NCBI GenBank assembly: GCA_030789695.1
Contig: CM061130.1
Location: 11,275,860-11,339,859, forward strand
DNA length: 64,000 nucleotides
Direction of reading: 5' to 3'
Origin: Scilla litardierei
Taxonomy: Eukaryota; Streptophyta; Magnoliopsida; Asparagales; Asparagaceae
Shown: positions 890 through 49,958 of the stretch, one piece after another
How the letters are laid out: every line of letters begins with the position of its first letter
How positions within the stretch are numbered: position 1 is the stretch's first letter
Made by a program: the position numbers and the translations under genes
Notes under the pieces: model-generated
What the model was told of the DNA's origin: nothing
Seen by the model: only the letters and a program-made list of their open reading frames with translations
Databases searched by the model: none

Positions 890-891
890 AT

Positions 892-903: not shown

Positions 904-940
904 CAAGGTTCAAAGCTACACATAGCCAAAGTTCAAAGCT

Positions 941-14000: not shown

Positions 14001-14018
14001 AAATCCCCCAAGCTGAAC
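14001..14018 (-). other. Polypurine tract of Athila-B
   Basis: Read on the minus strand, AGCTTGGGGGATTT lies directly before the LTR start TGACGTGCG. Two further AGCTTGGGGG-type tracts lie at about 15293 and 15554, each beside a short inverted repeat. Confidence 0.8.
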
Positions 14019-15640: not shown

Positions 15641-15652
15641 TGGAATCAAAAA

Positions 15653-17734: not shown

Positions 17735-17779
17735 ACACGAACAATTAAGCGAATTAAATATCTAGGGTAAAAATTGAAA

Positions 17780-18120: not shown

Positions 18121-18135
18121 ATTTATAGGGTTTAA

Positions 18136-18495
18136 GTCGAACCGATCGGGTGAGAAGTCACCCGATCGGTTGACTTTAGGTCGAAATTTTAAGCTGAAAA
18201 AACGCTACAGGCGAACCGGTCGGGTGATAACTCACCCGATCGGTTGGCCGCTCCACAGATTTTTCCCGAAAGTTTAGGGTTTCTCACCCGGTCCCTCAAC
18301 CGGTCTTGCTTCTTGTCACCCGATCGGTTGACAAATTTCTGAAATTTTCCCGAGAGTTTCCCCAGGTCACCCGGTCTGCCAACCGGTCTCTTCTTTCCTC
18401 ACCCGGTCGGTTCATTAAGTGGCAGACATGGCCGTTAGCTGATACATCCCAACCGATCGGTTGAGTTATCAACCGATCGGTTGGGGCCTTGTTTT
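18136..18495. repeat. Internal CCGATCGG motif block of Athila-B
   Basis: The same ACCGATCGGGTGA/CACCCGATCGGTTG motifs as in the LTRs recur here, between protease and the ORF. This suggests the block was copied from LTR sequence or is maintained under a shared constraint. Confidence 0.85.
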
Positions 18496-18680
18496 CTGCA
18501 AAAACCCACAAATCGCCTAAGTTCCACAACGGAAGTTCTTGCGGCTGGATTTATTTATAAAAATAGATAAAATAAAGTTAAAAATAATCCTAAAAATTGA
18601 AACAAAAGTTTAGAGCATGGGTTGCCTCCCATGAAGCGCTTTTGTTTAACGTCGTTTAGCTCGACGCCCGTTGATGATGT

Positions 18681-21417: not shown

Positions 21418-21621
21418 GAAAAACAACAAACACCCGTGAAGCGAAAAGTGGGAAAGAAACAGATAAGATAAGAAAAAAATAAAAATAAAAAATAAGAAAA
21501 TAAAAAGGAAAAAGAAGAATGCGAAAATTATCGCGAGGTAGGGATGAGAGCTAGACACAAGGGTTCATGAAATCCAAAAATAACAAGCACGTTGCCTCCC
21601 CGACAACGGCGCCATAAAGCT
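21418..21621 (-). other. Athila-B 5' leader with tRNA-Asp-like primer binding site
   Basis: Read on the minus strand, TGGCGCCGTTGTCGGGGAGG (21614 downwards) lies seven bases after the LTR end. This is the usual Athila/Tat primer site. Confidence 0.85.
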
Positions 21622-23213: not shown

Positions 23214-23424
23214 ATAAGGGACCCTGCAGGGCTACACACACACACTAGAGGGGAGATGAATACTGTAATAGCAGGCAAAGTGCTTAATTAAAAGTTACTA
23301 AAATGAAAGCACAATAAGCAGCGAAAATTAAACAGAGTGCTCAACAACAACAATCACAAACACAAAGATTTTACCCTGGTTTCCCAAAACTTGGGTACAT
23401 CCAGCCACACCAGTATTCACTAGA

Positions 23425-27450: not shown

Positions 27451-28870
27451 ACCTGCTCCTGGGGCACGTTACTTATTTGATTATTTCGCAGGTCTGCAGG
27501 TTACCAGTGAAACCAAAATAGCCACGACGCAGAGATGTACAAAAATACTCAAACCATCATACATTATTACAGTCCATAATTTAAGATACAACATCAATAA
27601 CACTCTCTCACCAAATACATGGAAGTAAAGTACAGAAATGAAACACATAGACGGTACATCACACATACACTTCAAATATAAAAGTCGGCAGTCTCAGGAT
27701 CGAGCTACGGCTCTATGAACTCAGGAGTATTTAAGTCAACATGTGCATCGTCTGCGGTGCCACTAAGATGGAACCGTAGGTAAGTCACAACAATTCTAGC
27801 AATAGAAATAGAGTACTGCAAAAGTATGGAACAGGCTATAGTAAACAAAAGATGGTCATGCATGTGCAAAAAGTAAAGTAAGAACAGACATGCATATACA
27901 AACGAAAAGTAAAGTACTGGTGGATGCTCAAGTGTGGTAAGTAAAGTGCATGTAATGCATAAAGTAAAGGTGACTGTGCAAGTACAAAAGTAACGTACAA
28001 GAGCAACAACTGTGGCATGGCATATGGTAACAACAATGTTTTAACCAACATGCAATGTGATGACAATAATAAGACAACCAGGTAGATGTAATAACACTAA
28101 AAGGACAAGTAAGTAAAAGTAAAGCTAGAAACTATGTGACTTATATAGGAAAGTACAGTGTGCAGCCATTGAGCCCATCTGCTGCCAAGGGGGCACTCAC
28201 TCGGGCGGATCTCAAATCACTTTAGACAGTACATTTCATTTAGACGGTCGGTACGGTACGGTGCAATGCGTAGATGGCTCGCGGTCGCTCCCGCACTTTC
28301 TCTAATATAAGTTACCCCAAAAACCCAGTGAAGTGCTAACTACTTATAAGCATTCAATTTCAATAAGACGTTCCACAGTATACCATTCACTCATTACTTT
28401 TCAATACGGTACGTCAATCCGTTGTTTTAAAGGCAAAGACTCTAATGACGGTTGTGATAGACCGACTAACATACCAATAAAGTTATGCAAAATAGTCTCA
28501 CTCCAAAGATGTTCAAAGGCATTAACAACACTCCAAAGAGTTTTGCTTGTTGAAAAGTCAAGGTAGAAGCCTCAACAGAGAATGTCAGTCCTGAGCAATG
28601 CTTTGAAGTCCAACAACTATGATACCGATCCATGCTTCGAGCATACGGTAATTCCATAAAGTACACTATCTCAATTTCTAAAGTTAGAATTTATTGTTAC
28701 TTACACTATCGAGATCGTCGTAGTAAGACGAGGTTGGAGCTGGAGCGCGAGGATTGGTACATGCAAACATAAGAAACAATCGGTTAAAGCAAACACTATT
28801 TTTTATTTATTAAACTTGGTCGTTTTGATTTTTAAAACTGGTTGAAACGGTGTCGAAAAACGTTCTAAAT
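27451..28870. other. Unclassified repeat-like intergenic sequence
   Basis: The start TGTAATGACCTGCTCC and the structured, moderately GC-rich text recall gypsy LTR or UTR sequence, but no partner copy lies in the window. AAGTAAAGT words recur at 27840-28140. No gene seen. Confidence 0.35.
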
Positions 28871-28874
28871 TTTT

Positions 28875-28975
28875 CTATAGGCTAGATATGATGAAAATAA
28901 TTTTACTGTGGGAGAAAATAATTTTACTGGTTGAAACGGTGACACGGAATTATTTTCATCATATCTAGCCTATAG
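28875..28975. repeat. Perfect 28-bp inverted repeat beside the giant palindrome
   Basis: Arms 28875-28902 and 28948-28975 are exact reverse complements (CTATAGGCTAGATATGATGA...). The loop is 45 bp. TGGTTGAAACGGTG is also directly repeated at about 28840 and 28928. Confidence 0.9.
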
Positions 28976-28988
28976 CAAATCAGCGCGG

Positions 28989-29780
28989 CCGTGTCACCTG
29001 AAGCTGTTGGGGCGTGAAAAGGATTGACATGGCCGCGTTGATTTGCGGCACAACCGTGCTCGATGCAGCCACATTTTCCTAACCCTAGTTTTTAGCGCCG
29101 ACACGGCCGTGCAGATTTGCGGCACAGCCGTGCGCTTCCAAATTTCTGTATAGGCTATAAATAGAGTGAGTTCGATAGAGAGAGGAATCCAGTTTTTAAT
29201 TCTGTGGTTTTCTAGGGTTCCCATTATGGGGCTTTTCTTCCATGCTTTGTAAGACCCTTAATTTCTATTTTCTTGTAATGGATCTTTATTTCTTTCAATT
29301 GCATAGCTCTTAATTTCTTCTTTGTTGCTCTTGTGATATTTTTTTACTATTTGTTATTTGTTGTTTATTGTGATGTTTAGTGAGTAGATCTTTGTGCCTA
29401 GGGTAAAACTAAACCCTAGTGTAGATTATTCATGTGGGTTGATCGCCTCAAAGATCGTCCTATTAGATTATTGCTAGGGTTTTGTTTGGATGTGCTTTCG
29501 CATCAACCCATCTCATTGGAGGGTTGATTATCTAATGCTAGGCGCCCATCTCATTGGAGGGTTGATTATCTAATGCTAGGCGCCGACAAAGCATTGGGCA
29601 CACTCATTAGAACTACTAATATAGGGATTTCCGAGGAACCATCGGGTGCCCTATAGAGCTCTAAGCACTACCCGTCGTTCCCTCTTCCATGGTAGATGTC
29701 GAGAGAGAAGGTGTATCGAGGTTGAACCCTCGTAGACGGCTCTATTCTATCTGGAACAATTCTTCTCCATGCAGATAAGG
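28989..29780 (+). repeat. Gypsy-type LTR part with CACGGCCGTG motifs, left arm
   Basis: GC-rich ACGGCCGTG motifs (28983-29140) are followed by a TATA box and AT-rich sequence with AAACCCTAGTGTAGATTATT, typical of a plant LTR read rightward. A direct duplication of CCCATCTCATTGGAGGGTTG lies at 29507-29575. Confidence 0.6.
29156..29164 (+). promoter_or_regulatory. Candidate TATA box of the LTR (left arm)
   Basis: TATAAATAG follows the CACGGCCGTG cluster. Its mirror copy lies at 45269-45277 on the minus strand. Confidence 0.5.
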
Positions 29781-29820
29781 CTTGCAAAATTTTAGCAATT
29801 GCATTGAAGTTGCGTAAAAT

Positions 29821-30870
29821 CAGTTTTCATAACCACAAGGCTGCTCTCCCAAGAATATGCCGAGTAAAGCTCCACAAGAATACACCCAGTGCTCAATATA
29901 TCACATGGATAACTCCATCCAAGCCGGGAACCGATCCCATAATTAAGCACTTAGGTAAACCAAGTAAAGCGGTAGAATGTTCTAGTTATCAAACCTACAC
30001 ATACCTAGTTTCGAGAAAATTGATGCAAAGATGAAAGAAACTTGTGGAAGAATTGTCACACACATGCTACACATTCCAATAGTTGTCTTGCAAGCTCACG
30101 GACAAGATCAATTTGAAACGAGCGGTAACTGTTTTTATGTAGAAAATCATATAAGCTTGCACCAAGCTTCTCAAAGACCTGTTGACATAATGTGAATTCA
30201 GCAATATGTTTTAACCCCTCAATGCTAGGTGGGAAATTGGGGAAAACATTACAAATTGATCGTAATACTTACAATACATATATGGTTACGATAGTTGTTC
30301 CGTATTTGTGCACAACTGCAAAAATAGACTGGCTGATATATATTAATGTGAATTCGATCTGCAAATCAAAGAGAAAACATAATGTTTGAAACCAACACAA
30401 ATACGTACAATGATATTCAAGATAGAGCCACCATCGTATTCCTTGTGACGCTACATAAAGAGAGGAGAGCATTTAAGGTGTAATTACAGCGAGAAGTTAA
30501 ATTCTCTCCAAGAACAAACATGTAATGATAATCTTTATCATCTTCTAACGAGAACACAATAACCAAAACAGAATTAAACACACCAGGGGCAGCATCACAA
30601 AAATACCAGCATCCAAATTACTGGATCCATAGTATCGACAATCACAAAAAAAATTTCCTGAAAACATACCCCATTGAATTAACAGGTCTAAGAAGAAATC
30701 AACAAAATCCAACCGATAACAAAAGAAAAGGCCATTAAAAATTAAAAAAATTAAAAATAGATGGATATCTTGGGGGTTTTGTGGGACTACATCCCAACCT
30801 AAACTCGCCCTCTTCCTCGGCCTGCGATCAATGTGAGCGTGAGGGACTTCGGTAGCGCACTCCATCTCCA
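29821..30870 (-). pseudogene. LAMMER (AFC2-like) protein kinase fragments, left arm
   Basis: Three exon-like pieces occur in order on the minus strand. About 30770-30870 reads 'ECATEVPHAHIDRRPRKRAS' and 'LGWDVVPQ', the conserved start of plant AFC kinases, but the first ATG is GTG. 30056-30185 reads 'EKLGASLYDFLHKNSYRSF' and 'QIDLVRELARQLLECVA', a catalytic-domain segment before the HRD loop. 29821-29938 reads 'LGWSYPCDI' and 'STGCILVELYS', the substrate-binding lobe. The HRD and DFG exons are absent. Intact AFC kinases are nuclear and phosphorylate SR splicing factors. This is a captured, inactive fragment. Confidence 0.85.
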
Positions 30871-31149
30871 CGGTCAAAAGACGAAAACTTTACCCTTTTC
30901 AATCTGAAAAAACAAAAAGGAAAAAATATCTTCTTCTCCAAACACCGAACCGAAGGTTCAGTGTATATAGAAATCCATTTCTTAAAAAGATAGACAACGA
31001 AAAGAAAATCAAAATAACAGGAACCATTAAATGCAAACAAAGTATCTGGGGCATCTTTAATCAACAACTGTAAACAAATTACAAAGAATGACGTGTAGTC
31101 TTGACAGTTACAGAATTGATCAAGAATATTTGAAGCTAAATTCTCTAGA

Positions 31150-32110
31150 TCATAAAGGAGGAGTCTCGACGGTGGGGAAGACTATCGGTGATCGAAGCGG
31201 GCGAGTCGCCGGGGAGCACCTCCATCCGATAAACTGTGGCTCGAAGCGACTGTTCTCCAGCAGCAGCACTCGCCCATGCACCCAAAACAGCAGCTCCACC
31301 TTGAAGCTGTCGAATCTTATCGGCCTCGGCATCTCTCGGCAGACCATGGTCTTGTCCTCCTGCCTCCAGCTTGCGACCTAGGTGCCATCTCCGCTCACTG
31401 TTGGAACATCAGTCGGTGGTACAACCTGCACGTTGAACAGCTCAAGATGTTCCCACGTAACAGGCTGCAAGTCCTTCAGAGTGAAGAGCTGCACGGTGTA
31501 GGTGGCCTCGTTAACCGCAACCAGGCCCAGTGCTCCCATGGCCCTGCACAGTTGCATTCTTAGCTGGAAGGGGCGATCGATGTGCCTCACAAGAACATCG
31601 GGGGGCATATGCAATAGGGACATGTACGACCAGCGGAGGGATGGGTCAGGTTCCCAACGCAGAGGCCCTCTAAACTCAAACTCAAAGCTAAGGACGGATT
31701 CCGGCGAAGTTTCGTTGGGAGAATCGGTGACCAGCCAGAAGAAGGTTAACCCGCAAGATATCCTGCTGTGGGGGACTATATTAATTTCATCAAATGGGGC
31801 AAAAGCGAACCTTTCGCGGTCGTGATGGGACCGCCAACTTCCGGAAACCGAATTGAAGGTCTCGAAGGAGTAGCCGATGTCCTTGCGTGAGGCGCAAACT
31901 ACTAGAAACTGGGGCTGCGGCTGCCGGACGGCGGCAAGAACGACATGCCTATCATCGGGACCGGCACCGGAATAAAGAAGGGACGTCGACGGCGGATCAG
32001 TTATGCGGTCGTAGCGGGGGATGGACGGGTTGCCTACGTACAATGTCGACGTGGCATTCCCTAGGCAGGCGACGAGTCCTTCGCAAGAAGAGTAGACGGT
32101 GACGTTAGTG
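31150..32110 (-). pseudogene. F-box-associated-type protein fragment, left arm
   Basis: On the minus strand a long frame (about 32104 to 31378) reads 'SSCEGLVACLGNATSTLYVG' and 'NPSIPRYDRITDPPSTSLL', the pattern of plant F-box-associated beta-propeller-like domains. It ends at a TAG (31378-31380) where the right arm has TGG, then continues in frame to about 31150. The N-terminal F-box itself is not seen. I am unsure of the subfamily. This copy keeps a CGA where the right arm has TGA. Confidence 0.6.
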
Positions 32111-33112
32111 TAGAAACTAAAGATCTAGATTAATGTATTCAAGCCAAATAATACAGATCTAGATATACCACATGCTGAATCTTAAAACGTCACCTACTCT
32201 GTTTAGCGGAAGCGTACCTGAATCCATCGCTAATAGTCTGAAAGAGATCCTGACGATAACGTGGCGGATGATCTCCAGAACAGCACGAATCAACCGTTGG
32301 AGAAATCCTTTGGCTTTCTCCCGGTTTCTCTCCTAGCGACGGGGCGTAGAAAAGACGGCTAACTTGTTCGTGTGCTCCGGGGATCATGACCACATATATA
32401 TAGGGGCTAGCCTCCTTAGCCCTAGGGTTTCCAATTCGTCCCATCAACGAATTGAAGCCCAATAGTCACCACACATAAAGGCCCACAACCTATATGACTC
32501 ATTTAAGCCCACTCAACTTAATAAATGAGATAACTTATACATTGGGCTTTAATATGACAGTGTAGCACTATATAATTATATTCGCATATTAGCCCAACGT
32601 TGGATTAAGATCCAACTGTGTTGGATAAGTTCCAACAGTTAGCCCTCCGGAATATGGGTTCAGTTGGATTGGGCGGCCGCAGTATCACGGCTTCGAGAAG
32701 ATGGTTGACGTGGTGGTAGATGTGTGTAGTAGCGCAGTCCTCCATTTGGTTTTATGTAAATTGGATTTGACGAAGACGAAGACGACAATATTCGTTATTT
32801 CTTTCTTGATGATTTCTTGGGTTTAATGGAAGCAACTGAGGGATGAAGGAGCTGGAATTATATTACTCTCTATTTAATTAGATGGTCGTATTTATTTTGC
32901 ACCCAATACGGTTTTGCGGGTTCCAGTAGACGGGCCGTAACTACATGTCCAGTTAGATAAAAAGTGATAATTGGGCCCCTCTGGTTAATTTGTTGGAAGA
33001 CGGTGACTAATAATTAGTAGTTAGCCATCCTGACTAATTAGTAGTCAGACACATCACTACTCATGGCTATGGCTGCTGGAGTGAAGTCCCTGAGAAAGCA
33101 GGCAGTCTGTCC

Positions 33113-34309
33113 TCTCATTGCATATCACATACTTGCATGCATCAACAAAATTTCTTGTTTCTTCCAGTGAGGACCCATGGGAGCATTTTTAAGATATGTT
33201 TGAGATCATTCAAATGATTGTCAAATGAATTCTAGCCATTATTTCATTCATTACTATATATTTGTCATTCTTTATCAATTTTCGACCGACATTACTACAT
33301 TAATTTTGAAAGCTAAATTGTTTTGATATGGAATGAAAAATTTTGTTTTCATTTTAATCCACACAAAAATAAAGTTATTGAAGTCTTAAGTGAGGCATAT
33401 CATATAGAGTCAATGGTAGATTATACTTCTTATCAGCTTAGATAGAGTCTGGCGTCGATATACATTTTCTTATATATCATATATAATATAGTTTGAATAT
33501 ATGCATGCCATTATTTTGTCGATATTTTCAATATATAAGCAAAGCATTCTTAATATTAATTTTAGCCAGCAATTCATTACCCAAGTCATGCACTACGAAT
33601 TCTAGCCAGCAATTCATGCACATTGCTGCTCGCAAAGACATCGGCAGGCAAAGATGCAACATTCGATTCCCCCAAGTACCCCCGGTCTTGATAAACAGGC
33701 GGCAACCCTTGCCGCAAAGATCCAGCTTTGCTGTGAGCAAAGCAAGATCGCTCTGCATTTGAAGCTTCCCAACCACAGTCTCTCCATACAAGCATTGCTC
33801 GGCCAGCGAAATGTGTCGTGCCCTGTTGTGAGATATACGTGTATTCTACTATATACACGTGGTATTTCTACCTACGATGCATACATAGGCATGAAATAAA
33901 CGTGGATATCGCTGTATGCAACGTAGTGCAAGGGGGATTGGGCCGTAATACGTTGCTAAGGGAAGAGAATGCGAAATATGAATGCGGAAGAAGTGCGAAT
34001 TACGCCGTGTGTATTATATAACGCGTATGTATTAGACGTGCGTGTGTAATGCATGTATGCATGCATGGATGTGCATGAATGTGTGTAGGGACAGCCATGC
34101 TAGTGTGAAAAGGGGTTAGGGGTTAATGGCAACCCCCGTAAATTTTTAGAAAGGTGAGAGGCAAAATGGTCATTTGGACTAAAGGAGGTGTGTGTATATA
34201 GTAAAGTGGTGTGTACATAAAGTAATGGCAAACTTGTAAATACCTAAAAGTTGAGGGGCATTTTGGGAGGATATTTTAGTCATTTTAAGGGGTGTGTAGA
34301 AAACTCTTT
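33113..34309. other. Spacer between the inverted arms
   Basis: About 1.2 kb of single-copy-looking sequence. A moderately GC-rich stretch (33600-33830) has overlapping open frames on both strands with no motif I recognise. CCAGCAATTCAT is repeated at 33567 and 33606. 33980-34090 is rich in ATGCATG and GTGTG words. No TIR-like ends seen at the spacer edges. Confidence 0.5.
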
Positions 34310-35279
34310 GGACAGACTGCCTGCTTTCTCAGGGACTTTACACCAGCAGCCATAGCCATGAGTAGTGATGTGTCAGACTACTAATTAGTCAGGATGGCTA
34401 ACTACTAATTATTAGTCACCACTTCCAACAAATTAACCAGAGGGACCCAATTATCACTTTTTATTTAACTGGACATGTAGTTACGGCCCGTCTACTGGAT
34501 ACCGGCAAAACCATAATGGGTGCAAATAAATACGACCATCTAATTAAATAGAGAGTAGTATAATTCCAGCTCCTTCTTTCTCCCTCAGTTGCTTCCATTA
34601 GACCCAAGAAATCATCAAGAAAGAAATAGCGAATCTTGTCGTCTTCGTCTTCGTCAAATCCAATTTACATAAAACCAACTGGAGGACCACGCTACTACAC
34701 ACATCTACAACCACGTCAACCATCTTCTCGAAGCCGTGATACTGCGGCCGCCCAATCCAACTGAACCCATATTCCGGAGGGCTAACTGTTGGAACTTATC
34801 CAACACAGTTGGATCTTAATCCAACGTTGGGCTAATATGCGAATATAATTATATAGTGCTACACTGTCATATTAAAGCCCAATGTATAAGTTATCTCATT
34901 TATTAAGTTGAGTGGGCTTAAATGAGTCATATAGGTTGTGGGCCTTTATGTGTGGTGACTATTGGGCTTCAATTCGTTGATGGGCCGAATTGGAAACCCT
35001 AGGGCTAAGGAGGCTAGCCCCTATATATATGCGGTCATGATCCCCGGAGCACACGAACAAGTTAGCCGTCTTTTCTACGCCCCGTCGCTAGGAGAGAAAC
35101 CGGGAGAAAGCCAAAAAATTTCTCCAACGGTTGATTCGTGCTGTTCTGGAGATCATCCGCCACGTTATCGTCAGGATCTCTTTTAGACTATTAGCGATGG
35201 ATTCAGGTACGCTTCCGCTAAACAGAGTAGGTAACGTTTTAAGATTCAGCATGCGGTATATCTATATCTGTATTATTTG

Positions 35280-35755
35280 GTTTGAATACATTAGTCTAGA
35301 TCTTTAGTTTCTACACTAATGTCACCGTCTACTCTTCTTGCGAAGGACTCGTCGCCTGCCTAGGGAATGCCACGTCGACATTGTACGTAGGTAACCCGTC
35401 CATCCCCCGCTACGGCCGCATAACTGATCCGCCGTCGACGTCCCTTCTTTATTCCGGTGCCGGTCCCGATGATAGGCATGTCGTTCTTGCCGCCGTCCGG
35501 CAGCCCAGCCCCAGTTTCTAGTAGTTTGTGCCTCACACAAGTACATCGGCTACTCCTTCGAGACCTTCAATTCGGTTTCTGGAAGTTGGCGGTCCCATCA
35601 CGACCACGAAAGGTTCGCTTTTGCCCCATTTGATGAAATTAATATTGTCCCCCACAGTGGGATATCTTGCGGGTTAACCTTCTTCTGGCTGGTCACCGAT
35701 TCTCCCAACATAACTACGCCAGAATCCATCCTTAGCTTTGAGTTTGAGTTTAGAG
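35280..35755 (+). pseudogene. F-box-associated-type fragment, right arm, N-terminal part
   Basis: Mirror copy of about 32110-31670 on the left arm. A one-base deletion near 35508 (CAGCCCAGCC against CAGCCGCAGCC) breaks the frame, and copia-D is inserted at TAGAG. Confidence 0.6.
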
Positions 35756-37667
35756 TGTTAGGAGCAACGACCTAGGATCTTGGTTTGATGATGACAAACG
35801 TGTCGTTATATCTGATGTGTGTGTTTAGTGTGTTTCAGGATTTCATCCCTCACTATTTGGAGGAATTGCTATTCATATAGCATCTTAGGAGAGGAAGGAA
35901 GCGTGTGTGCAAAGGAAATATGGGATGAGATGGAGAGGATCTCTTTGGATTGAGTCAAATCAATTACGGATCAACAATTGGAACTTACGCACTCATATTG
36001 AGTATATTCGTGTTTCAATTCTTTGTTTTGTGTGTGCAGGTGCAAGGCCGGCCTATATAAAGCACCTAAAAAAATTGCAAAACAAAAGGAAACAGGAGAA
36101 AAGATCACATGCCATAAAAAGGAGGGTAGGCCCACATTTTTTTGCTTGATGGAGAGCAGGCCGAATTTTAGCCCAGGCCGGTTCTTTGGCATTTGCTCCT
36201 CTCTTTAAAAACCCCTTATGATCTCAAATATATATATATATATATATCTCAATACCCTAAGGGAAAAACAAAACAAAGAGACATAGAGATCCGAAAAAAA
36301 AGAGGGCAATTTTTTCGGTTTGTTTTTTTTTGCTGCCGCAAGATTGGAAATTGCTTGGTGCCAATTTTTTTTATTTCCAAGAGCTGAATTCATTTTTTTT
36401 ATAGGGTTTTGTTGACAACCGAGAAAAAACAAAGGATCCAATCAAATTTTTGTTTGGTGGAGACATTTTTGTGTTAGGAGCACTCACAGACTTCCAAAGG
36501 GGGGCTTCAAGTTGTTGTTTGCATTTTTTGTCTATGCTTGGCCGAAAATTCCAAGAGAGCTCCTCCATTAAAAACGTGTGTCTTTTAATCTCCTTTGAAG
36601 AAACCCTAGGATAGGCAGCCTTATATTTTTAAAGGTGTTCGTTTTTTTTTGTGTCCGTGTGTTTTTTTTTTCGGCAGCTGCACTAATTTTCTCCAAAAAG
36701 AGCAAAAGATCAAAGGCCCTCTGTTTTGTTTTTCATTTACAACATTTTATAGTGGGGCACGTTTCTCTTGGAGAATTCTACAAGCTGTCGTAATTTGCTT
36801 TTGAGGCAGAGCCGTACTTCAACGATCAAGGACGTCCCAAAATCATGAAGAGCACATAACTGCCGAAAGTTGTTCTCTATACGTTGAAAGGCTCAAAGCA
36901 CAGGGAGTATTATTTTTAACTCTTTGCAAATTTCAAAGTATCGTTTAACCTGCATCCTTATGTGTTTTGTTGCTTTGTTGACAGGCCGTACAAATTGAGA
37001 AAGAGAGGCGCACGCAAAAACCCCACTTCAAAATTCCAAGAGCACTGACTATATTGTTGCAACAGTGTAGGGAGGGCGCAACATCAGAGAGTGTCGCAAC
37101 CTGAGTTGCTGAGGAGACGAGAGACGGGACATCCACATCTACGTCAGACGAGATCTGACCCGTGCTGATTGACGAGGACATCACCGCTACACAAACTGAG
37201 ATTCCTAAACTCTATTTATTATTATTTTGTGTAGTTGTTGTGTTAGATCCTCGTAGGGGAAACTTTACCATCTTTTGTGTTATTTTGGGACTTGTCTAGT
37301 TGGGGCTAGACAAGTGGGACCCAGCTAGTTTGGGACTAGCTGGTAGAAAGCTTTACTAGGATTGATAGCGAGAGAAAACACAGTGAGTGGGGTACTGAGA
37401 GCCTGGCGAGTGTAGAGACGTAGAGGGTGCTCTGAGCGTGCTCTAACTTGTGGTTTTGTACCTATTGCGCTATTCAATACTAGTTCTGCTTTGGGGGCTG
37501 GAGTAGGTCGTTGGGACGACCGAACCAGGGTAAATCTGCTGTGTACTCTGTGTCTACCTTTCATTACTCTGGTTGTGCTTTTAACTGCGTGTGCTTTCTC
37601 GTGAGTTGCACGAGAATTTTTTATTAGCCTATTCACCCCCCCTCTAGGCTAGGATCCAGATCCAACA
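35756..37667 (+). repeat. 5' LTR of copia-D
   Basis: TGTTAGGAGCAACGACC start, CTCTAGGCTAGGATCCAG near the end. It contains a pure TA run at about 36225-36247, where the 3' LTR has TCTC repeats. Confidence 0.95.
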
Positions 37668-37669
37668 AG

Positions 37670-37681
37670 TGGTATCAGAGC
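37670..37681 (+). other. Primer binding site of copia-D (initiator tRNA-Met)
   Basis: TGGTATCAGAGC two bases after the 5' LTR. Confidence 0.95.
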
Positions 37682-37703
37682 AGGTTTTTGGGATCTAGCC
37701 TAG

Positions 37704-39575
37704 ATGAATAACCATATGGATAGTGCTTTTGCTGAGGGTCAGTCTGTTTCCCGTCCCCCTAGGTTTACCGGAGGTGATTATGCTTATTGGAAAAATCGTA
37801 TGAAAATCTACCTTATTTCTGTTGATTACAAGGCTTGGCAAATAATTGAAAAAGGATATAAACTGCCTGTAATTAAAGTAGAAAATGCTGAGATTGAAAA
37901 CCCAAATGACAAATGGGATGATAATGATTGGAAATCTTATTCTTTAAATGCTAAAGCTATGAATGCTCTCATTTGTGCACTTGATAAATCTGAATATAAT
38001 AGAATCTCACATTGTCTAACTGCGCAGGAAATATGGCATACTTTGGAGGTGACGCACGAGGGAACGTCACAGGTGAAGGAGTCTAGACATGCACTTCTGA
38101 GCACAGAATACGAGGGATTTCACATGCTACCATCAGAGACCATATCAGAAATGTTTGCGAGATTCACCAACATCGTCTACAAGTCTAGCTCGCTCGGTAA
38201 GCCATATTCTAGCCTTGAACAGGTGAGAAAGATATTAAGAGCACTGCCAAGCTCTTTCAGACCAAAGGTCCCCGCCATCCAGGAAGCAAAGGTATTGTCT
38301 CAATTGAAGGTGGAGGACCTTATTGGTAATTTGATGTCCCATGAGTTGGAATTACAAAATGTTGAAGCAAGAGAGAAACCTGAGGAGAAAGAGAAAGCCA
38401 TAAAGCCCCTTGCTTTGCAAGCTAGCGAAGAAGAGGATGATGATGAAGACATAGCGCTAATGGTGAGAAACTTCAGAAAGTTCATCAAGACCAAGCATGG
38501 GAGAAACGAAATGGCACCCAGGTTTAATCGTTCTAACTTTAATAATTCTTCCAAGCAATTTAATGATCAGAAATCTACTGATAGAATGCAATGTTTTAAA
38601 TGCAAGGGAAGAGGACATCTGATGAAGGATTGCCCAAATGAAACTGCTCAGCTCGCTAAAGGAAAAGGAAAAGCGAAGGTATTAACATGGGATATGGATA
38701 GCGAAGCTGAAAGCGAGGAGGAACATGAAGCCCATTCTTGCATGGCTTTGATGGGCATCCAAGATGAGACACCGTCAGGTAGCAAAGCTGAACTTCTTAA
38801 AATTTGTGAAGAAATGCAAAATCAAATAGTAGATCATGAGTTCACTATTGAATGTCTCCAAAATCAAAACTATGACATGCAAGTTAGAGATGATAAGGTG
38901 TTTAAAGAGAATGAAAAACTTAAAATTGAACTTAATGCATGTAAGTCTACTATTGAAATCATGAAGAAGGAAAAAGAAAGCTTTGATGAAAATGCTCCTT
39001 GTATTTCGTGTTCCTCTTTATTAAATCAAAATAGCATACTTAAACAAGATTTAATGAAGCTCGAAGCTGAAAAAGAATATGAAATAAGAGAGCTTAAGGA
39101 TAAATTTTGCATGCTAGATAATGACTTTAAAAGAAAAATGATTGAATTCGAGAAGAGGGAAGAGGAAAACAAGAGGGTTTTTATAAGTAAATGCACGATG
39201 CTTGTGGAAGAGAATAAACAATTAAAAATCAAAGTCTCTCATCTTGAATTGGCCATTAAGAAATTCTCTATAGGAAAACAATCGTTGGACACAATTTTAG
39301 AGAATCAATTATATGGCAATAATAGAAGAGGACTTGGTTTTGGTCTGAAAAACGTTGAAAAGCAAAAATTCAAGAAATTCCACAATGTACCCTCTATTGC
39401 AAAGAACAAATTTGCAAAGTGCTTTACTTGTGATAGTGTAGGCCACACATCATATTATTGCAAATTTAGGAACACTAATATCAAGTTTAAACAAGTGTGG
39501 GTTCCTAAAACAATATTGGCTAACACTAGTGGACCTTGTTGGATTCCAAGGTCACACTTAACACCTTTCATTTAG
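37704..39575 (+). CDS. gag: Gag of copia-D, intact (623 aa)
   Basis: The ATG at 37704 lies 23 bases after the primer site and opens an uninterrupted frame. Residues ~14-230 form a UBN2-type copia Gag domain ('PPRFTGGDYAYWKNRMKIYL', then 'AKAMNALICALDKSEYNRIS'). A zinc knuckle CFKCKGRGHLMKDC starts at residue 297. Residues ~350-540 are Lys/Glu/Leu-rich and look like a long coiled coil. A second knuckle CFTCDSVGHTSYYC starts at residue 573, followed by 'VWVPK', the motif that in full copia polyproteins precedes integrase. The frame stops shortly after. Gag would form particles and bind RNA; the intact frame suggests recent activity or selection. Enzymes would have to come from a relative. Confidence 0.93.
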   Translation: MNNHMDSAFAEGQSVSRPPRFTGGDYAYWKNRMKIYLISVDYKAWQIIEKGYKLPVIKVENAEIENPNDKWDDNDWKSYSLNAKAMNALICALDKSEYNRISHCLTAQEIWHTLEVTHEGTSQVKESRHALLSTEYEGFHMLPSETISEMFARFTNIVYKSSSLGKPYSSLEQVRKILRALPSSFRPKVPAIQEAKVLSQLKVEDLIGNLMSHELELQNVEAREKPEEKEKAIKPLALQASEEEDDDEDIALMVRNFRKFIKTKHGRNEMAPRFNRSNFNNSSKQFNDQKSTDRMQCFKCKGRGHLMKDCPNETAQLAKGKGKAKVLTWDMDSEAESEEEHEAHSCMALMGIQDETPSGSKAELLKICEEMQNQIVDHEFTIECLQNQNYDMQVRDDKVFKENEKLKIELNACKSTIEIMKKEKESFDENAPCISCSSLLNQNSILKQDLMKLEAEKEYEIRELKDKFCMLDNDFKRKMIEFEKREEENKRVFISKCTMLVEENKQLKIKVSHLELAIKKFSIGKQSLDTILENQLYGNNRRGLGFGLKNVEKQKFKKFHNVPSIAKNKFAKCFTCDSVGHTSYYCKFRNTNIKFKQVWVPKTILANTSGPCWIPRSHLTPFI

Positions 39576-40828
39576 GTATGATGGAGTTTTGACGAGGAGC
39601 GATATATTCAATGTCTCATTCTTATAGCTCCTTCGTCAAAAGGCGACGAGAAGGTATAATATTTATCCATCTTTGCATATTCATTGCATACCTTCATAGA
39701 TAGTTTTTGTGTGCTTGTTTTATTTTGTTTTGAGTGCTTGCATGCATGATTTTTAATGTTTTTATTTCTGAAAAAAAAACAAAAACAAAACAAAAACAAA
39801 AAAAATTTGAGCTTAAAAGAATACCCTTAATGTTTTATCCTAAGTGGTATTGTATGAATGATTAAATCTATCCCTTGTAGAAGTTAATTCATTATTGTTG
39901 TAGCTACATGAACACGTTGTTATCTTTTTAATAGCCATGACATGTCTCATAAATTTCGAATTTGACTTCTACACCTACATTTGCACTTTCACGATAATAG
40001 ACTTTTTAGTGCTTTTGGAGATTCTTTTGAAGAATAGTGGAAAGTGAATGTAGGAATGATTAAATTCTGAATTCTTTAAGGGATATGAAGTGTTTAGCCA
40101 TGAATTAAAATTGAGCAAAAAAATTGCAAATGAAAAATATATGAAAATTGCTCTGTATGAAAAATGGATACACTTCATGGCTAATACACAACCCACGAGT
40201 ATCCAACTTGTGCTAAATGGGTAATCATTAGCGTTGGTGTATATAACTCGTCAAGCAATGCCACCCCGCATTTAAAAGTCCTTTTAGGCCATGTTTCGGG
40301 GTTTGGTAACTTGAACTCATCCTTGATGAGGTGGGAAAAATCAATCCTACTGATATTCATGAAAAATTGGAAAATGTGGATTGATTTGGTTGAATTTCTA
40401 AAATTGAATCTCATCTTGCACTTTATTGTCTATATCATCACACTTACACAAAGGTGGAGAAGCCTTGTTATGAAATCCTATGAGCTTGGATTGTCTATTT
40501 TGTGGAAAACTCATGCAAATTTCACGCTACATTTAATAATGGTTTATTTTTGCATGGAATATTTTTGTGACTTCATTAATCCACTTTTGGTGATTACAAA
40601 GGGGGAGAAAGAGAAAGAAAATATTTTGGCAGCTTTGAGCTTTGATGTTGATATTTTTTGTTGAAGGGGGAGCTTGAGAGAAGGGGGAGCATGCTTTTAT
40701 ATTTACTATTTGTTGTGCATGCTTTATAATGCTTGACTCATCCATACATTCTATTGCATTACACCCTTCAACACACTTCACACATCCATATTTTTTTTGC
40801 TCAAATCTTTTATAGGTTTGTCATCACC
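39576..40828 (+). other. Non-coding 3' region of copia-D
   Basis: About 1.25 kb without coding sequence, matching copia-A in length and position. GGGGGAG tracts occur near 40601, 40666 and 40684 besides the tract next to the LTR. Confidence 0.8.
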
Positions 40829-40841
40829 AAAAGGGGGAGAT
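40829..40841 (+). other. Polypurine tract of copia-D
   Basis: AAAAGGGGGAGAT directly before the 3' LTR; preceded by TTTGTCATCACC, which is also found before the copia-A tract. Confidence 0.92.
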
Positions 40842-42752
40842 TGTTAGGAGCAACGACCTAGGATCTTGGTTTGATGATGACAAACGTGTCGTTATATCTA
40901 ATGTGTGTGTTTAGTGTGTTTCAGGATTTCATCCCTCACTATTTGGAGGAATTGCTATTCATATAGCATCTTAGGAGAGGAAGGAAGCGTGTGTGCAAAG
41001 GAAATATGGGATGAGATGGAGAGGATCTCTTTGGATTGAGTCAAATCAATTACGGATCAACAATTGGAACTCATGCACTCATATTGAGTATATTCGTGTT
41101 TCAATTCTTTGTTCTGTGTGTGCAGGTGCAAGGCCGGCCTATATAAAGCACCTAAAAAAAATTGCAAAACAAAAGGAAACATGAGAAAAGATCACATGCC
41201 ATAAAAAGGAGGGTAGGCCCACATTTTTGCTTGATGGTGAGCATGCCGAATTTTAGCCCAGGCCGGTTCTTTGGCATTTGCTCCTCTCTTTAAAAACCCC
41301 TTATGATCTCAAATATATATCTCTCTCTATCTCTCAATACCCTAAGGGAAAAACAAAACAAAGAGACACAGAGATCCGAAAAAAAGAGGGCAATTTTTTC
41401 GGTTTGTTTTTTTTTGCTGCCGCAAGATTGGAAATTGCTTGGTGCCAATTTTTTTTATTTCCAAGAGCCGAATTCATTTTTTAATAGGGTTTTGTTGACA
41501 ACCGAGAAAAAACAAAGGATCCAATCAAATTTTTGTTTGGTGGAGACATTTTTGTGTTAGGAGCACTCACAGACTTCCAAAGGGGGGCTTCAAGTTGTTG
41601 TTTGCATTTTTTGTCTATGCTTGGCCGAAAATTCCAAGAGAGCTCCTCCATTAAAAACGTGTGTCTTTTAATCTCCTTTGAAGAAACCCTAGGATAGGCA
41701 GCCTTATATTTTTAAAGGTGTTCGTTTTTTTTGTGTGTCCGTGTGTTTTTTTTTCGGCAGCCGCACTAATTTTCTCCAAAAAGAGCAAAAGATCAAAGGC
41801 CCTCTGTTTTGTTTTTCATTTGCAACATTTTATAGTGGGGCACGTTTCTCTTGGAGAATTCTACAAGCTGTCGTAATTTGCTTTTGAGGCAGAGCCGTAC
41901 TTCACCGATCAAGGATGTCCCAAAATCATGAAGAGCACATAACTGCCGAAAGTTGTTCTCTATACGTTGAAAGGCTCAAAGCACAGGGAGTATTATTTTT
42001 AACTCTTTGCAAATTTCAAAGTATCGTTTAACCTGCATCCTTATGTGTTTTGTTGCTTTGTTGACAGGCCGTACAAATTGAGAAAGAGAGGCGCACGCAA
42101 AAACCCCACTTCAAAATTCCAAGAGCACTGACTATATTGTTGCAACAGTGTAGGGAGGGCGCAACATCAGAGAGTGTCGCAACCTGAGTTGCTGAGGAGA
42201 CGAGAGACGGGACATCCACATCTACGTCAGACGAGATCTGACCCGTGCTGATTGACGAGGACATCGCCGCTACACAAACTGAGATTTCTAAACTCTATTT
42301 ATTATTATTTTGTGTAGTTGTTGTGTTAGATCCTCGTAGGGGAAACTTTACCATCTTTTGTGTTATTTTGGGACTTGTCTAGTTGGGGCTAGACAAGTGG
42401 GACCCAGCTAGTTTGGGACTAGCTGGTAGAAAGCTTTACTAGGATTGATAGCGAGAGAAAACACAGTGAGTGGGGTACTGAGAGCCTGGCGAGTGTAGAG
42501 ACGTAGAGGGTGCTCTGAGCGTGCTCTAACTTGTGGTTTTGTACCTATTGCGCTATTCAATACTAGTTCTGCTTTGGGGGCTGGAGTAGGTCGTTGGGAC
42601 GACCGAACCAGGGTAAATCTGCTGTGTACTCTGTGTCTACCTTTCATTACTCTGGTTGTGCTTTTAACTGCGTGTGCTTTCTCGTGAGTTGCACGAGAAT
42701 TTTTTATTAGCCTATTCACCCCCCCCCTCTAGGCTAGGATCTAGATCCAACA
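40842..42752 (+). repeat. 3' LTR of copia-D
   Basis: Near-identical to 35756-37667; right target duplication TAGAG follows at 42753-42757. Confidence 0.95.
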
Positions 42753-42757
42753 TAGAG

Positions 42758-43260
42758 GGCCTCTGCGTTGGGAACCGGACCCATCCCTCCGCTGGTCGTA
42801 CATGTCGCTATTGCATATGCCCCCCGATGTTCTTGTGAGGCACAGCGATCGCCCCTTCCAACTAAGAATGCAACTGGGCAGGGCCATGGGAGCACTGGGC
42901 CTGGTTGCGGTTAACGAGGCCACCTACACCGTGCAGCTCTTCACTCTGAAGGACTTGCGGACTGTTACGTGGGAACGTCTTGAGATGTTCAACGTGCAAG
43001 TTGTACCACCGGCTGATGTTCCAGCAGCGAGCAGGGATGGTGCCTGGGTCGCAAGCTGGAGGCCGAAGGACAAGACCATGGTCTGCCGAGAGATACCGAG
43101 GCCGAAAAGATTCGACAGCTTCAAGGTGGAGCTGCAGTTTTGGGTGCATGGGTGAGTGCTGCTGCTGGAGAACGTTCGCTTCGAGCCACATGTTTATCGG
43201 ATGGAGGTGCTCCCTGACGACTGGCCCGCTTCGATCACCGATGGTCTTCCCCATCGTCGA
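42758..43260 (+). pseudogene. F-box-associated-type fragment, right arm, C-terminal part
   Basis: It resumes the frame cut by copia-D: 'SLLHMPPDVLVRHSDRPFQL', then 'LGLVAVNEATYTVQLFTLKD'. A Trp codon is intact where the left arm has TAG, but TGA at 43153-43155 replaces the left-arm CGA. Both copies are therefore disabled by different changes. Confidence 0.65.
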
Positions 43261-43552
43261 GACTCATCATTTAGATCTAGAGAATTTAGCTTCAAATCTT
43301 CTTGATCAATTCTGTAACTGTCAAGACTACACGTCATTCTTTGTAATTTGTTTATAGTTGTTGATTAAAGATGCCCCAGATACTTTGTTCGCATTTAATG
43401 GTTCCTGTGATTTTGATTTTCTTTTCGTTGTCTATCTTTTTAAGAAATGGATTTCTATATACATCGAACCTTCGGTTCGGTGTTTGGAGAAGAAGATATT
43501 TTCTCCTTTTTGTTTTTTCAGATTGAAAGGGTAAAGTTTTCGTCTTTTGACC

Positions 43553-44620
43553 ATGGAAATGGAGTGCGCTACCGAAGTCTCTCACGCTCACATTGATCGC
43601 AGGCCGAGGAAGAGGGCGAGTTTAGGTTGGGATGTAGTCCCATAAAACCCCAAGATATCCATCTATTTTTATTTTTTTAATTTTTAATGGCCTTTTCTTT
43701 TGTTATCGGTTGGATTTTGTTGATTTCTTCTTAGACCTGTTAATTCAATAGGGTATGTTTTCAGGAATTTTTTTTGTGATTGTCGATACTATGGATCCAG
43801 TAATTTGGATGCTGGTATTTTTGTGATGCTACCCTTGGTGTGTTTAATTCTGTTTTGGTTATGTGTTCTCGCTAGAAGATGATAAAGATTGTCATTACAT
43901 GTTTGCGCTTGGAGAGAATTTAACTTCTCGCTGTAATTACACCTTAAATGCTCTCCGCTCTTTATGTAGCGTCACAAGGAATACGATGTTGTCTCTATCT
44001 TGAATATCACTGTACGTATTTGTGTTGGTTTCTAACGTTATGTTTTTCTCTTTGATTTGCAGATCGAATTCACATTAATATATATCAGCCAGTCTATTTT
44101 TGCAGTTGTGCACAAATACGGAACTGGATAGTCAACTATCGTAACCATATATGTATTGTAAGTATTATGATCAATTTGTAATGTTTTCCCCAATTTCCCA
44201 CCTAGCATTGGTGGGTTAAAACATATTGCTGAATTCACATTATGTCAACAAGTTTTTGAGAAGCTTGGTGCAAGCTTATATGATTTTCTACATAAAAACA
44301 GTTACCGCTCGTTTCCCATTGATCTTGTCCATGAGCTTGCAAGACAACTATTGGAATGTGTAGCATGTGTGTGACAATTCTTCCACAAGTTTCTTTCATC
44401 TTTGCATCAATTTTCTCGAAACTAGGTATGTGTAGGCTTGATAACTAGAACATTCTACTGCTTTACTTGGTTTACCTAAGTGCTTAATTATGTGATCGGT
44501 TTCGGGCTTGGATGGAGTTATCCATTTGATATATTATATTGAGCACTGGGTGTATTCTTGTGGAGCTTTGCTCGGCATTTTCTTGGGAGAGCAGCCTTAT
44601 GGTTATGAAAACTGATTTTC
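43553..44620 (+). pseudogene. LAMMER (AFC2-like) kinase fragments, right arm
   Basis: Mirror of 29821-30870. The first exon (43553-43645) starts at ATG and reads 'MEMECATEVSHAHIDRRPRK' before a TAA in place of the left-arm CAA. The catalytic segment lies at about 44250-44373 and the 'LGWSYP' segment at about 44500-44620, the latter more eroded than on the left. The HRD and DFG exons are missing here too, so they were absent before the inverted duplication. Confidence 0.85.
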
Positions 44621-44679
44621 TGCAACTTCAATGCAATTGCTAAAATTTTGCAAGCCTTGTCTGCATGGAGAAGCATTGT

Positions 44680-45895
44680 TCCAGATAAAATAGAGCCGTC
44701 TACGAGGGTTCAACCTCGACACACGTTCTCTCTCGACGTCTGCCATGGAAGAGGGAACGACAGGTAGTGCTTAGACCTCTATAGGGCACCCGATGATTCC
44801 TCGGAAATCCCTATATTAGTAGTTCTATGAGTGTGCCCGATGCTTTGTCGGCGCCTAGCATTCGATAATCAACCCTCCAATGAGATGGACGCCTAGCATT
44901 TGATAATCAACCCTCCAATGAGATGGGTTGATGCGAAAGCACATCCAAACAAAACCCTAGCAATAATCTAATAGGACGATCTTTGAGGCGATCAACCCAC
45001 ATAAATAATCTACACTAGGGTTTAGTTTTACCCTAGGCACAAAGATCTACTCACTAAACATCACAATAAACAACAAATAACAAATAGGGAAAAATATCAC
45101 AAGAGCAACAAAGAAGAAATTAAGAGCAATGCAATTGAAAGAAATAAAGATTCATTACAAGAAAATAGAAATTAAGGGTCTTACAAAGCATGGAAGAAAA
45201 GCCCCAAAGGGGGAGCCCTAGAAAAACACAGAACTAAAAACTGGATTCCTCTCTCTATCGCACTCACTCTATTTATAGCATATACAGAAATTTGGGAGCG
45301 CACTGCCGTGCCGCAAATCTGCTCGGCCGTGTCGGCGCTAAAAACTAGGGTTTGGAAAATGCAGCTGCATCGAGCACGGTCGTGCCGCAAATCAGCGCGG
45401 CCGTGTCAATCCGTTTTCACGCCCCAGCAGCTCCAGGTGACACGGTCGTGTGAACAACCTATCTTGTGTCTGAATTTCAACACGCCCGTGTTGCACGGCC
45501 GTGTTGCCAATCTGCCCTCTGTCTTAAATTGGACACGGCTGTGTGATGAATCCGCACGGCCGTGTCACTAATGCTGACACTCCCCCTTTGGTTTATAGTA
45601 TGACACGGCCGTGTGAGGTGCACACATGGCCGTGTTGCCTGCTCTTTGGCCCATTTCTTTCTCTTTTGATCTCCGATCTTTGTTATTCTTTGTTGCCTTA
45701 TCTCCCATACTCCACACATCACCAAATCGCATCGTTTTGTGCATGAATTCCCTGAAATACACGAAGCATATCCCAGAAGCGTAAAATAGACAAAAGTGGG
45801 TAAAAACAGGTAAAATAGGGAGAGTGGTATAGAATAAACATGGAAAATAAAGGGTGAAAGGGACGGAACTAGGTGCGTAAAATACGCTTAACTCA
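44680..45895 (-). repeat. Gypsy-type LTR with ACACGGCCGTGT motifs, right arm and beyond
   Basis: The part to 45450 mirrors the left arm. The unduplicated part holds more motifs (about 45480-45640), up to GCGTAAAATACGC near 45876, which resembles the start region of Athila/Tat LTRs on the minus strand. A TATA box lies at 45269-45277. The outer edge at about 45895 is a guess. Confidence 0.55.
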
Positions 45896-46049: not shown

Positions 46050-46680
46050 TTCCCTTTTCTATTTTTAGAACACGGCTTTCTTTTTGTATATGTACTATTG
46101 CCTCGCTGCATTGACTAAAGTGGTTGGTTCTGCAGTCAGCAGCAACTATTTATTGATTTATTCTGAATTTCCTTGCCTTTTATTAACTTCAAATAAAAAT
46201 TGGCAGCTTGAGCACTGGATAGGCTTGGGCTGCTTTTGACTTGTTGTTTGTTGTAACCTTGCATGACGGAGAAGGTTAGTGCATGGTAATTCTATGAGCT
46301 GGAAAGTTAAAAAAGGCAAGCCAAATGATAGTTTGATACGATTTGGTATAGATTTGGAGCAAAAAGATAGGATTTTTGTTGGTTTATTGTTTGAAACTAC
46401 TAGATTTGGCCTCACTTTGAGAGGAATGCTACTCTTGTAAAACTTGCATACATACATAAATAGATCCATGCATGTGCATGCACAAATGTTTGCATACACA
46501 CAGCACAATAAACACACAAATACCTGCCCATATAAATTTTGTTATACTTTTTAAAATATATTCCATTAGATTTGTTGTACATATTTTAAAAAACCCTAAA
46601 ATACAAAGTTTGGTATGAACCCTGGCCCTTGATCAAGTCAATACAAAAATTCTATTCCTCTAAAATCATTATATATATAT
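46050..46680. other. AT-rich intergenic sequence
   Basis: No gene or repeat recognised. Confidence 0.4.
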
Positions 46681-46682
46681 AG

Positions 46683-46842
46683 AATAATGGGTATCATATG
46701 ACATGGGAGGCATCTCCTCATATACCAAGACACAAAAAGTGGGGTGGTACAACAAGTACAAGCCCATGCGGGCTTGTACCACCCCACTTTTTGTGTCTTG
46801 TACATGAGGAGATGCCTCCCATGTCATATGATACCAATTATT
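46683..46842. mobile_element. Hairpin (foldback) MITE-like element
   Basis: Two arms of about 66 bp are reverse complements with four or five mismatches. They share TATCATATGACATGGGAGGC, GACACAAAAAGTGGGGTGGT and the end word AATAAT. The loop itself is the palindrome GTACAAGCCC-ATGC-GGGCTTGTAC. It lies between TA-rich sequences, so a target duplication cannot be told apart. Confidence 0.8.
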
Positions 46843-46911
46843 TTATATATATACTAGGCATTACTCGTGCCCATAGGGCACGGATACCCATTATTATTCC
46901 CCCCAAAATAA

Positions 46912-47929: not shown

Positions 47930-48420
47930 AGAATTTTTTTTAAAAAATACCAAAACAAAAAAATTTAACGTTAATAAGTAACATGCAACAAAAAATTAAA
48001 CATTAAATAATATCAAAAATGCAAAAATTATATTTCTGCTAACGTGTTTCCCTCTTCCCCTTTATAAACAAGTCTAGCATAGGTTTACGTAAAATCATAA
48101 CAAAAAATTAAACGTTAAATAATATCTAACATGCAAAAATGATAATAAGTAACAAGTAATAATGAATAAAAAATGACAACAGTGGTGATCGAAACATACC
48201 AAACCAAAAAATTTAGACGTTAATAAGTAACATGCAACAAAGAATTAAACGTTAAATAATATCCAAAATGCAAAAAAATATTTCTGCTCTCATTTCCCTC
48301 TTCCCATCTCGTAACAAGTCTATCATAGGTTTACACAAAATCATAATAAAAAATTAAACATTAAATAATACCCAACATTCAAAAATTGATAAGAAGTAAC
48401 AAATAATAATGAATAAAAAA
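47930..48420. repeat. AT-rich minor repeats upstream of the tandem duplication
   Basis: TTAATAAGTAACATGCAACA, AATTAAACATTAAATAATA and TTTCTGCT(A/C) segments recur two to four times at about 230-bp spacing. Confidence 0.65.
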
Positions 48421-48560
48421 TAACAGTAGCGCCTTACCCATTGGGACATAAAGAGATGTTGCATAAACAATACTCAACAAGCAAAACAATAATAATTAGT
48501 AACAACTAATAATGAATACAACAATAATAATAAGTAACAACTAATACTGAATAAAAATGA

Positions 48561-48632
48561 GTACATTTAGGATTGAACCCAGAACCGCTGATTGCTCAAG
48601 CTAAGGGATTATCCATTGTGCCATAAAGAGAT
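48561..48632 (-). repeat. tRNA-like module b (unit 1)
   Basis: On the minus strand TGGCACAATGGATAA resembles an A box and GGTTCAATCC a B box, at tRNA-like spacing. A second copy lies at 49299-49372. No complete acceptor stem, so not a tRNA gene. Confidence 0.5.
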
Positions 48633-48697
48633 GGTTGTTAAACTATACACAACATACAAAAAATGATAAGAATAACGAATAATAATGAAAAAAAATC

Positions 48698-48772
48698 GGT
48701 TGCAGCGAGGATTGAACACAGAACCTCGTATTTCAAGACTGGCGCCTTTTTCACTGGGCTTAAAGAAATGGC
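48698..48772 (-). repeat. tRNA-like module c (unit 1)
   Basis: On the minus strand TAAGCCCAGTGAAAAAGGCG resembles a D arm and GTGTTCAATCCTCG a T arm. A second copy lies at 49438-49511, and a truncated D-arm relative (TGTCCCAATGGGTAAGGCGC) at 48426-48458. Confidence 0.5.
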
Positions 48773-49958
48773 AAAAATATATGGTAAATTTTTTTATGTT
48801 AACTTCTTGCCCTGGGCAAGTGCTATATAGTTTTGCCCCTATGCACGCACACGTGCATGCACGCACACTTGCATGCATGTGTGTGAAGGAGAGGGTGTGC
48901 ATCCATATGTGTGTGCACATTCGCGCGTGCATGTGTGCATGTGTATGTATGCATCTCTCTCTCTGTGTGTGTGTGTGTTTGTGTGTGCATGTACGCCTGT
49001 TAGCATGTCTGTGAGTATAAGCAGGGGCTGGCCCTGGACTATGGCCGGGCCCAGAAGAGCCAAGAACTAATAGTCAATGGAAAAATAAATAGATTATAGA
49101 AATTTGTGAAAGTAAAGAATAGTAAAGTTATAAATATAAATCTTTGAAATTTGTTTAGTTTGATTTTTCTATATTATATAATGAATTCATTTAGATGAAC
49201 AAACAATGTCACTTTTAAATTTATTAGATTTAATAAGTAACAACTAATAATGAATAAAACAATAATAATAAGTAACAACTAATACTGAATAAAAATGAGT
49301 ACATTGGGGATCGCAACCAGAACCTCTGATGTCTTAAACTAAGGGATTATCCATTGTGCCATAAAGAGATGGTTGTTAAACTATACACAACATACAAAAA
49401 CTGATAAGAATAACGAAAAATAATAAATAAAAACCGGTTGCAGCGAGGATTGAACATAGAACCTCGTGAATTTCAAGACTGGTGCCTTTTTCACTGGGCT
49501 TAAAGAGATGGCAAAAATATATGTAAATTTTTTATGTTATTTTCTTTCCTTGGGTAGCTGCCCAGGGCAAGTGCTATATAGTTATGCCCCTGTGCACACA
49601 CATGTGCTTGCATGCACACATGCACACACATGTGTGTGTGTGTGAAGGAGAGGGTGTGCATCCATATATGTGTGTACATGCGCGCGTGCATTTGTATGTA
49701 TGCTTCTCTCTCTCTCTGTGTGTGTGTGTGTCTGTGTGTATGCATGTACGTGTGTGAGCATGTCTGTGAGTATAAGCAGGGGCTGGCACATGAACATAAT
49801 CAATGGAAAAATAAATAGATTATAGAAATTTGTGAAAGTAAAGAATGTAAAGTTATAAATATAAATCTTTGAAATTTGTTTAGTTTGATTTTTCTATATT
49901 ATATAATGAATTCATCTAGATGAACAAACAATGTCACTTTTAAATTTATTAGATTTAA

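Follow-up and report, generated by a model that had tools for sequence, protein, structure and literature searches.

A 4.1-kb inverted duplication of gene scraps in Scilla litardierei, probably a product of break repair, split by a Copia-type retrotransposon

Small RNAs derived from inverted scraps of genes have been reported in Arabidopsis (PMC4687873, PMC1820830; this and the other published systems are taken as presented in excerpts of the cited papers). The locus described here is an inverted duplication of gene scraps and long terminal repeat (LTR) scraps in Scilla litardierei, located in a 64,000-nt stretch of DNA (contig CM061130.1, positions 11,275,860 to 11,339,859, forward strand), which is referred to as the window; all coordinates are positions within it. 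The Arabidopsis loci IR71 and IR2039 are, like the Scilla locus, long inverted repeats whose transcript could give near-perfect double-stranded RNA (dsRNA), and their precursor RNA and small interfering RNAs (siRNAs) have been measured (PMC4687873). The W22 form of maize Tpd1 is likewise a long inverted repeat containing transposon sequence, and the Tpd1 hairpin of teosinte mexicana is uninterrupted and gives 22-nt RNAs that target Tdr1 (PMC11390486). Inverted partial gene copies in retrotransposon-rich DNA are also found for ARR17 of Populus euphratica, with 24-nt siRNAs and a methylated target gene (PMC9636151). Unlike these three systems, the Scilla locus is known from sequence alone, and unlike IR71 and IR2039 one of its arms is split by 7 kb. 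Rice has adjoining inverted pseudogenes with a similar loop (1,283 nt in one case); however, the rice stem is 185 nt, and small RNAs map to the rice pair while the excerpted report saw none from the parent gene (PMC2708354).

Comparison of the window with itself by BLASTN gave three long matches, namely 28986-31672 inverted against 42753-45448, 31668-33112 inverted against 34310-35755, and a direct pair at 35752-37667 and 40838-42752. The two inverted matches are one inverted duplication whose right arm is split by an LTR element. A second self-comparison shows the arms again, as 16 ungapped inverted pieces, and the BLASTN self-comparison found no further copy of the arms within the window. 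The parts are as follows.

28986-33112, minus strand: left arm, 4127 bp (BLASTN and MAFFT)
33113-34309, no strand: spacer, 1197 bp between the aligned arm ends
34310-35755, plus strand: right arm, inner part, pairing with 31668-33112 at 96.5% identity over 1449 columns (BLASTN)
35756-42752, plus strand: Copia-type LTR element inside the right arm, 6,997 bp, recognized by its LTR pair, ends and target-site duplication
42753-45448, plus strand: right arm, outer part, pairing with 28986-31672 at 94.8% identity over 2704 columns including gaps (BLASTN)

The right arm is 4137 bp once the insertion and one copy of the target site are excluded. The arms differ by 160 substitutions at 4116 aligned sites (96.1% identical; Kimura two-parameter distance, K2P, 0.040) and by 18 indels. 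Both inverted pieces have a BLASTN E of 0.0, which excludes chance as the origin of the match. The original prediction, made from the letters of the window, described a 4.1-kb inverted duplication around a 1.2-kb spacer with outer ends at 28989 and 45450, and the arm alignment bears this out with measured ends of 28986 and 45448. The prediction also had the arms matching over their whole length. The identity of the arms agrees with this, but the right arm is discontinuous, being interrupted at 35755/42753 by a 6,997-bp LTR retrotransposon that had gone unmentioned. The overall span is 16.5 kb because this element splits the right arm. Taken as a whole, the locus is probably a decaying inverted duplication that arose from error-prone break repair, was later split by a retrotransposon, and is non-functional.

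Read outward from the spacer, each arm contains an inner stretch without matches, an F-box-associated-like frame, two LAMMER-kinase pieces and LTR-like sequence. The features of the left arm and the spacer are listed here.

28994-29257, minus strand: LTR-like outer end of the left arm, with a CACGGCCGTG-type motif, by sequence
29792-29950, minus strand: LAMMER-kinase piece 2 (phmmer, CLK4 6fyv_A residues 208-231, E = 1.1e-4)
30056-30268, minus strand: LAMMER-kinase piece 1 (phmmer, CLK4 6fyv_A residues 94-131, E = 8.2e-6)
31378-32124, minus strand: F-box-associated-like frame (Pfam PF24750, below threshold)
33528-33845, minus strand: spacer scrap from a gene for a DUF7032 protein (Pfam PF23005, E = 1.2e-9, 38.3 bits against a cut-off of 27)

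The predicted LAMMER-kinase content is present, but only as two exon-sized pieces. Kinase piece 1 matches all of the 8 scored database proteins at 68-90% identity, those named being from Musa, Vicia faba and Camellia. The two pieces are separated by 141 nt in each arm, where CLK4 has 76 residues, or 228 nt. A complete kinase domain is absent, and since the same catalytic stretch is missing from both arms its loss preceded the duplication. A unit of 38 nt is repeated twice within each arm (29507-29584 and 44852-44926), and its presence inside each arm makes this repeat older than the duplication as well. The LTR label of the arm end is our assumption, made by look and not by a library match, and Pfam gave no match to the 87-aa frame found there. 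This LTR-like sequence extends beyond the arm end in the right copy, but not in the left copy. The DUF7032 scrap, a third gene scrap that was missing from the original prediction, lies in the spacer.

The F-box-associated content fared less well. There is one weak match, to the F-box-associated propeller PF24750 (E = 0.061, 12.9 bits against a cut-off of 25), and the label comes from this single sub-threshold match; no F-box domain was found by Pfam among the arm frames searched, and a protein search with the frame gave 298 candidates with none at E <= 0.001. The frame is broken separately in each arm. In the left arm a TAG stop stands where the right arm reads TGG, and the lesions of the right arm are the 7-kb insertion, a deletion of 1 nt and a TGA within the tail. 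Comparison of the arms gives 13 synonymous and 21 non-synonymous differences for the main frame (proportions pS 0.072 and pN 0.037), and 0 and 15 for the tail (pS 0, pN 0.086); jointly, main frame and tail appear near neutral.

The element inside the right arm has LTRs at 35756-37667 (1912 bp) and 40842-42752 (1911 bp), which start with TGTTAGG and end with CCAACA. It is flanked by the target-site duplication TAGAG at 35751-35755 and 42753-42757, and this duplication is the 5-nt overlap of the two inverted matches. Two features lie behind the first LTR.

37670-37681, plus strand: primer-binding-site-like sequence TGGTATCAGAGC after the first LTR, by sequence
37704-39575, plus strand: gag frame of 623 aa (Pfam Retrotran_gag_2, E = 2.6e-29; zf-CCHC, E = 3.8e-6)

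By look, we take TGGTATCAGAGC to be akin to an initiator-tRNA-type primer-binding site, and AAAAGGGGGAGA before the second LTR to be the polypurine tract. The gag protein has 110 matches with a best identity of 41% among the 7985 candidates that shared most words and were scored, and the named relatives among the matches listed are flowering plants. The gag stop and the second LTR are 1264 nt apart. Pfam found no protease, integrase or reverse transcriptase match in the element frames searched, which were those of at least 90 aa. The element thus appears to be a non-autonomous Copia-type element with gag as the only gene found. The K2P of its LTR pair is 0.0116 against 0.0400 for the arms, a divergence about 3.4 times smaller, which places the insertion after the duplication.

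The outer left junction is made up of short copies of nearby sequence and looks like a break-repair scar. The stretches involved are the following.

28837-28913, plus strand: left flank, donor of three of the five fillers by exact matches of 16, 28 and 16 nt (28837-28852; 28875-28902, inverted; 28893-28908)
28914-28996, plus strand: scar-like zone in which five copied segments lead into the left arm, its last 11 nt shared with the arm
45387-45445, plus strand: arm-end sequence matched by two fillers (exact matches of 22 nt and 10 nt)

Filler 1 (28914-28929) is a copy of 28893-28908 and filler 2 (28926-28941) is a copy of 28837-28852. Filler 3 (28938-28947) equals 45436-45445, filler 4 (28948-28975) is the reverse complement of 28875-28902, and filler 5 (28975-28996) equals 45387-45408 and continues into the arm, sharing its first 11 nt. 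Successive fillers overlap by 4, 4, 0 and 1 nt. All 83 nt of the zone are accounted for by matches to 28800-28913 or 45380-45448 that are 10 nt or longer. As a control 5000 random zones were drawn, and 4926 were kept after 74 had been removed for overlap. None of the 4926 reached a coverage of 83 nt, and 2 reached 60 nt. Any 10-mer of 45380-45448 was present in 43/4896 zones, the best five of which lie in the neighbouring 45531-45557.

Fillers copied from either end of a break mark polymerase-theta repair in Arabidopsis (PMC10923293), and short inverted templated insertions via foldback have been demonstrated in yeast (PMC11724301). Like the products of theta-mediated end joining in Arabidopsis, the Scilla junction is assembled from short stretches copied from close by, in either orientation; it differs in being natural and old and in lying next to an inverted copy of 4 kb, whereas the Arabidopsis fillers of the excerpted report come from induced breaks and T-DNA junctions (PMC10923293). 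The locus probably started as intergenic plant DNA, a mosaic of scraps from genes and LTRs, of which an inverted copy was made on the other side of the adjoining 1.2 kb. The most likely route is error-prone repair of a double-strand break with template switching, whether of a polymerase-theta-like or of a replicative type. Since the LTR-like sequence of the arm end runs on at the right side only, the left arm is probably the more recent copy. Both arms would afterwards have drifted as non-coding DNA, until the non-autonomous Copia-type element entered the right arm and separated an inner stem of 1.45 kb from an outer one of 2.7 kb. The present state is most likely that of a decaying structural variant, and any small RNA would be incidental.

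Several observations weigh against this history. A cruder control is non-significant, as 41 of the 1486 random zones have as many repeats of at least 14 nt. Both arm-end fillers are also templated by the left arm's own start (10/10 and 20/22 nt), and for this reason the filler chain may record the trimming of the left arm by a later deletion and not the founding event. The inner junctions are without filler of at least 11 nt, except for the arm itself and one 12-mer within the spacer. Taken alone, the main F-box-like frame could lean to mild constraint (pS 0.072, pN 0.037). The longest run that is identical between the arms measures 275 bp, lies in the inner stem and exceeds expectation (p = 0.0005 for uniform and 0.0094 for context-weighted changes), and the emptiest 300-, 500- and 700-nt windows of arm changes gave context-weighted p values of 0.033, 0.025 and 0.104. 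This run hints at conversion between the arms or at constraint but is suggestive only. Methylation-type decay of the arms was also considered and is not concluded. C-to-T changes are enriched in CG over CHH contexts (p = 0.0005), but CHG is not clear (p = 0.075), the classes were defined after the changes had been viewed, and an LTR pair in the window has a pattern similar to that of the arms.

Why, then, should a long inverted repeat of this kind not be an active hairpin locus? A transcript running through the spacer would fold on the inner 1.45-kb stem, a Dicer-like enzyme would cut it, and the small RNAs would hit F-box-like or other relatives of the arm sequence. The arms do form a long near-perfect inverted repeat (96.1% over 4116 sites), and 1712 of the 4107 left-arm 21-mers occur perfectly in the complement of the right arm. 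The inner stem, where 734/1425 21-mers pair perfectly (963/2667 in the outer part) and where the longest identical run is located, is itself uninterrupted. Precedents are the maize Tpd1 hairpin (PMC11390486) and the inverted ARR17 scraps of Populus euphratica (PMC9636151). However, 6,997 bp of inserted sequence in the right arm break the stem as a whole, leaving just the inner 1445/1446 bp directly opposed across the spacer. The proposal that a spacer transcript would give kilobases of dsRNA therefore stands as far as a long duplex is possible, but a continuous stem of kilobases is broken by the 7-kb element. The reading frames of both arms run away from the spacer, and ordinary sense transcription of an arm therefore would not cross it; the inserted element, on the plus strand, likewise reads away from the spacer. 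The W22 Tpd1 locus of maize, interrupted by two large transposons, is without small RNA in the excerpted account (PMC11390486). The kinase pieces lie wholly beyond the insertion, cut off from the inner stem, and this leaves the AFC-type kinase, named in the prediction as a parent gene on which siRNAs could act, unsupported as a likely target. In a term search for literature on a LAMMER-kinase hairpin, 267 papers had 3 of 4 terms, and none of the 8 listed mentions a LAMMER kinase, which is no proof of absence. Hairpin silencing is a mechanism of a known kind that seems less likely here owing to the insertion; a silencing role is possible in principle but unsupported, and an active hairpin locus is unlikely. 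It is more doubtful still that the inner 1.45-kb stem remains a working hairpin, with its 275-bp tract kept by conversion and with its output trimmed by the Copia insertion to the inner half, dropping the kinase half. If true, this would be a natural case of a transposon editing the target list of a hairpin.

Gene-capturing elements carry scraps of several gene families, and the arms and spacer together hold scraps of three. This content could be explained by capture of gene scraps by a foldback or Mutator-like DNA transposon whose terminal inverted repeats are very long. However, the arm-end sequence continues past the right end, and among those frames of the arms and spacer that were run against Pfam, a part of all frames, none matched a transposase. 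A check of the sequence at the ends found no target-site duplication abutting both outer arm ends, and a mobile-element origin by this mark was rejected; such a transposon is improbable. An assembly artefact, in which one locus or two haplotypes were falsely joined in inverted orientation, is very improbable. The 160 substitutions and 18 indels between the arms and the filler-type left junction are unlike the product of a chimeric or hairpin read, and the insertion with its target-site duplication is present in one arm only. Decay of a duplication formed by break repair probably remains the better account, and under it the order of events can be read in the sequence, from scrap decay through inverted copying with a filler-type scar and drift to splitting by the element. 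The origin and death of inverted gene-scrap loci, a seedbed of plant hairpin RNA, are seldom visible, and the locus is a useful dated example and not a new system. It also shows that continuity and transcription need to be checked before a long inverted repeat is taken for a silencing locus.

The surrounding DNA holds other repeats. Rfam gave 0 matches across the window, and a tRNA search with the bacterial code also gave 0. A second Copia-type element occupies 1-6237, with LTRs at 1-889 and 5348-6237 (98.5% identical, K2P 0.0148), the first of which touches the window edge, and with gag frames at 926-1489 and 1640-3247. Adjoining the end of this element is a reverse-transcriptase scrap at 6228-7016 on the minus strand (26.8 bits against a Pfam cut-off of 29.6). 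An Athila-type element lies at 12433-23214 on the minus strand and has an LTR pair with a K2P of 0.038, an ATHILA ORF-1 match, and protease and gag frames. To the right of the duplication, a 182-nt near-palindrome at 46672-46853 is 88% self-complementary, like a small hairpin element, and 47943-49958 consists of two adjoining tandem duplications with units of about 246 nt (86%) and about 740 nt (85%).

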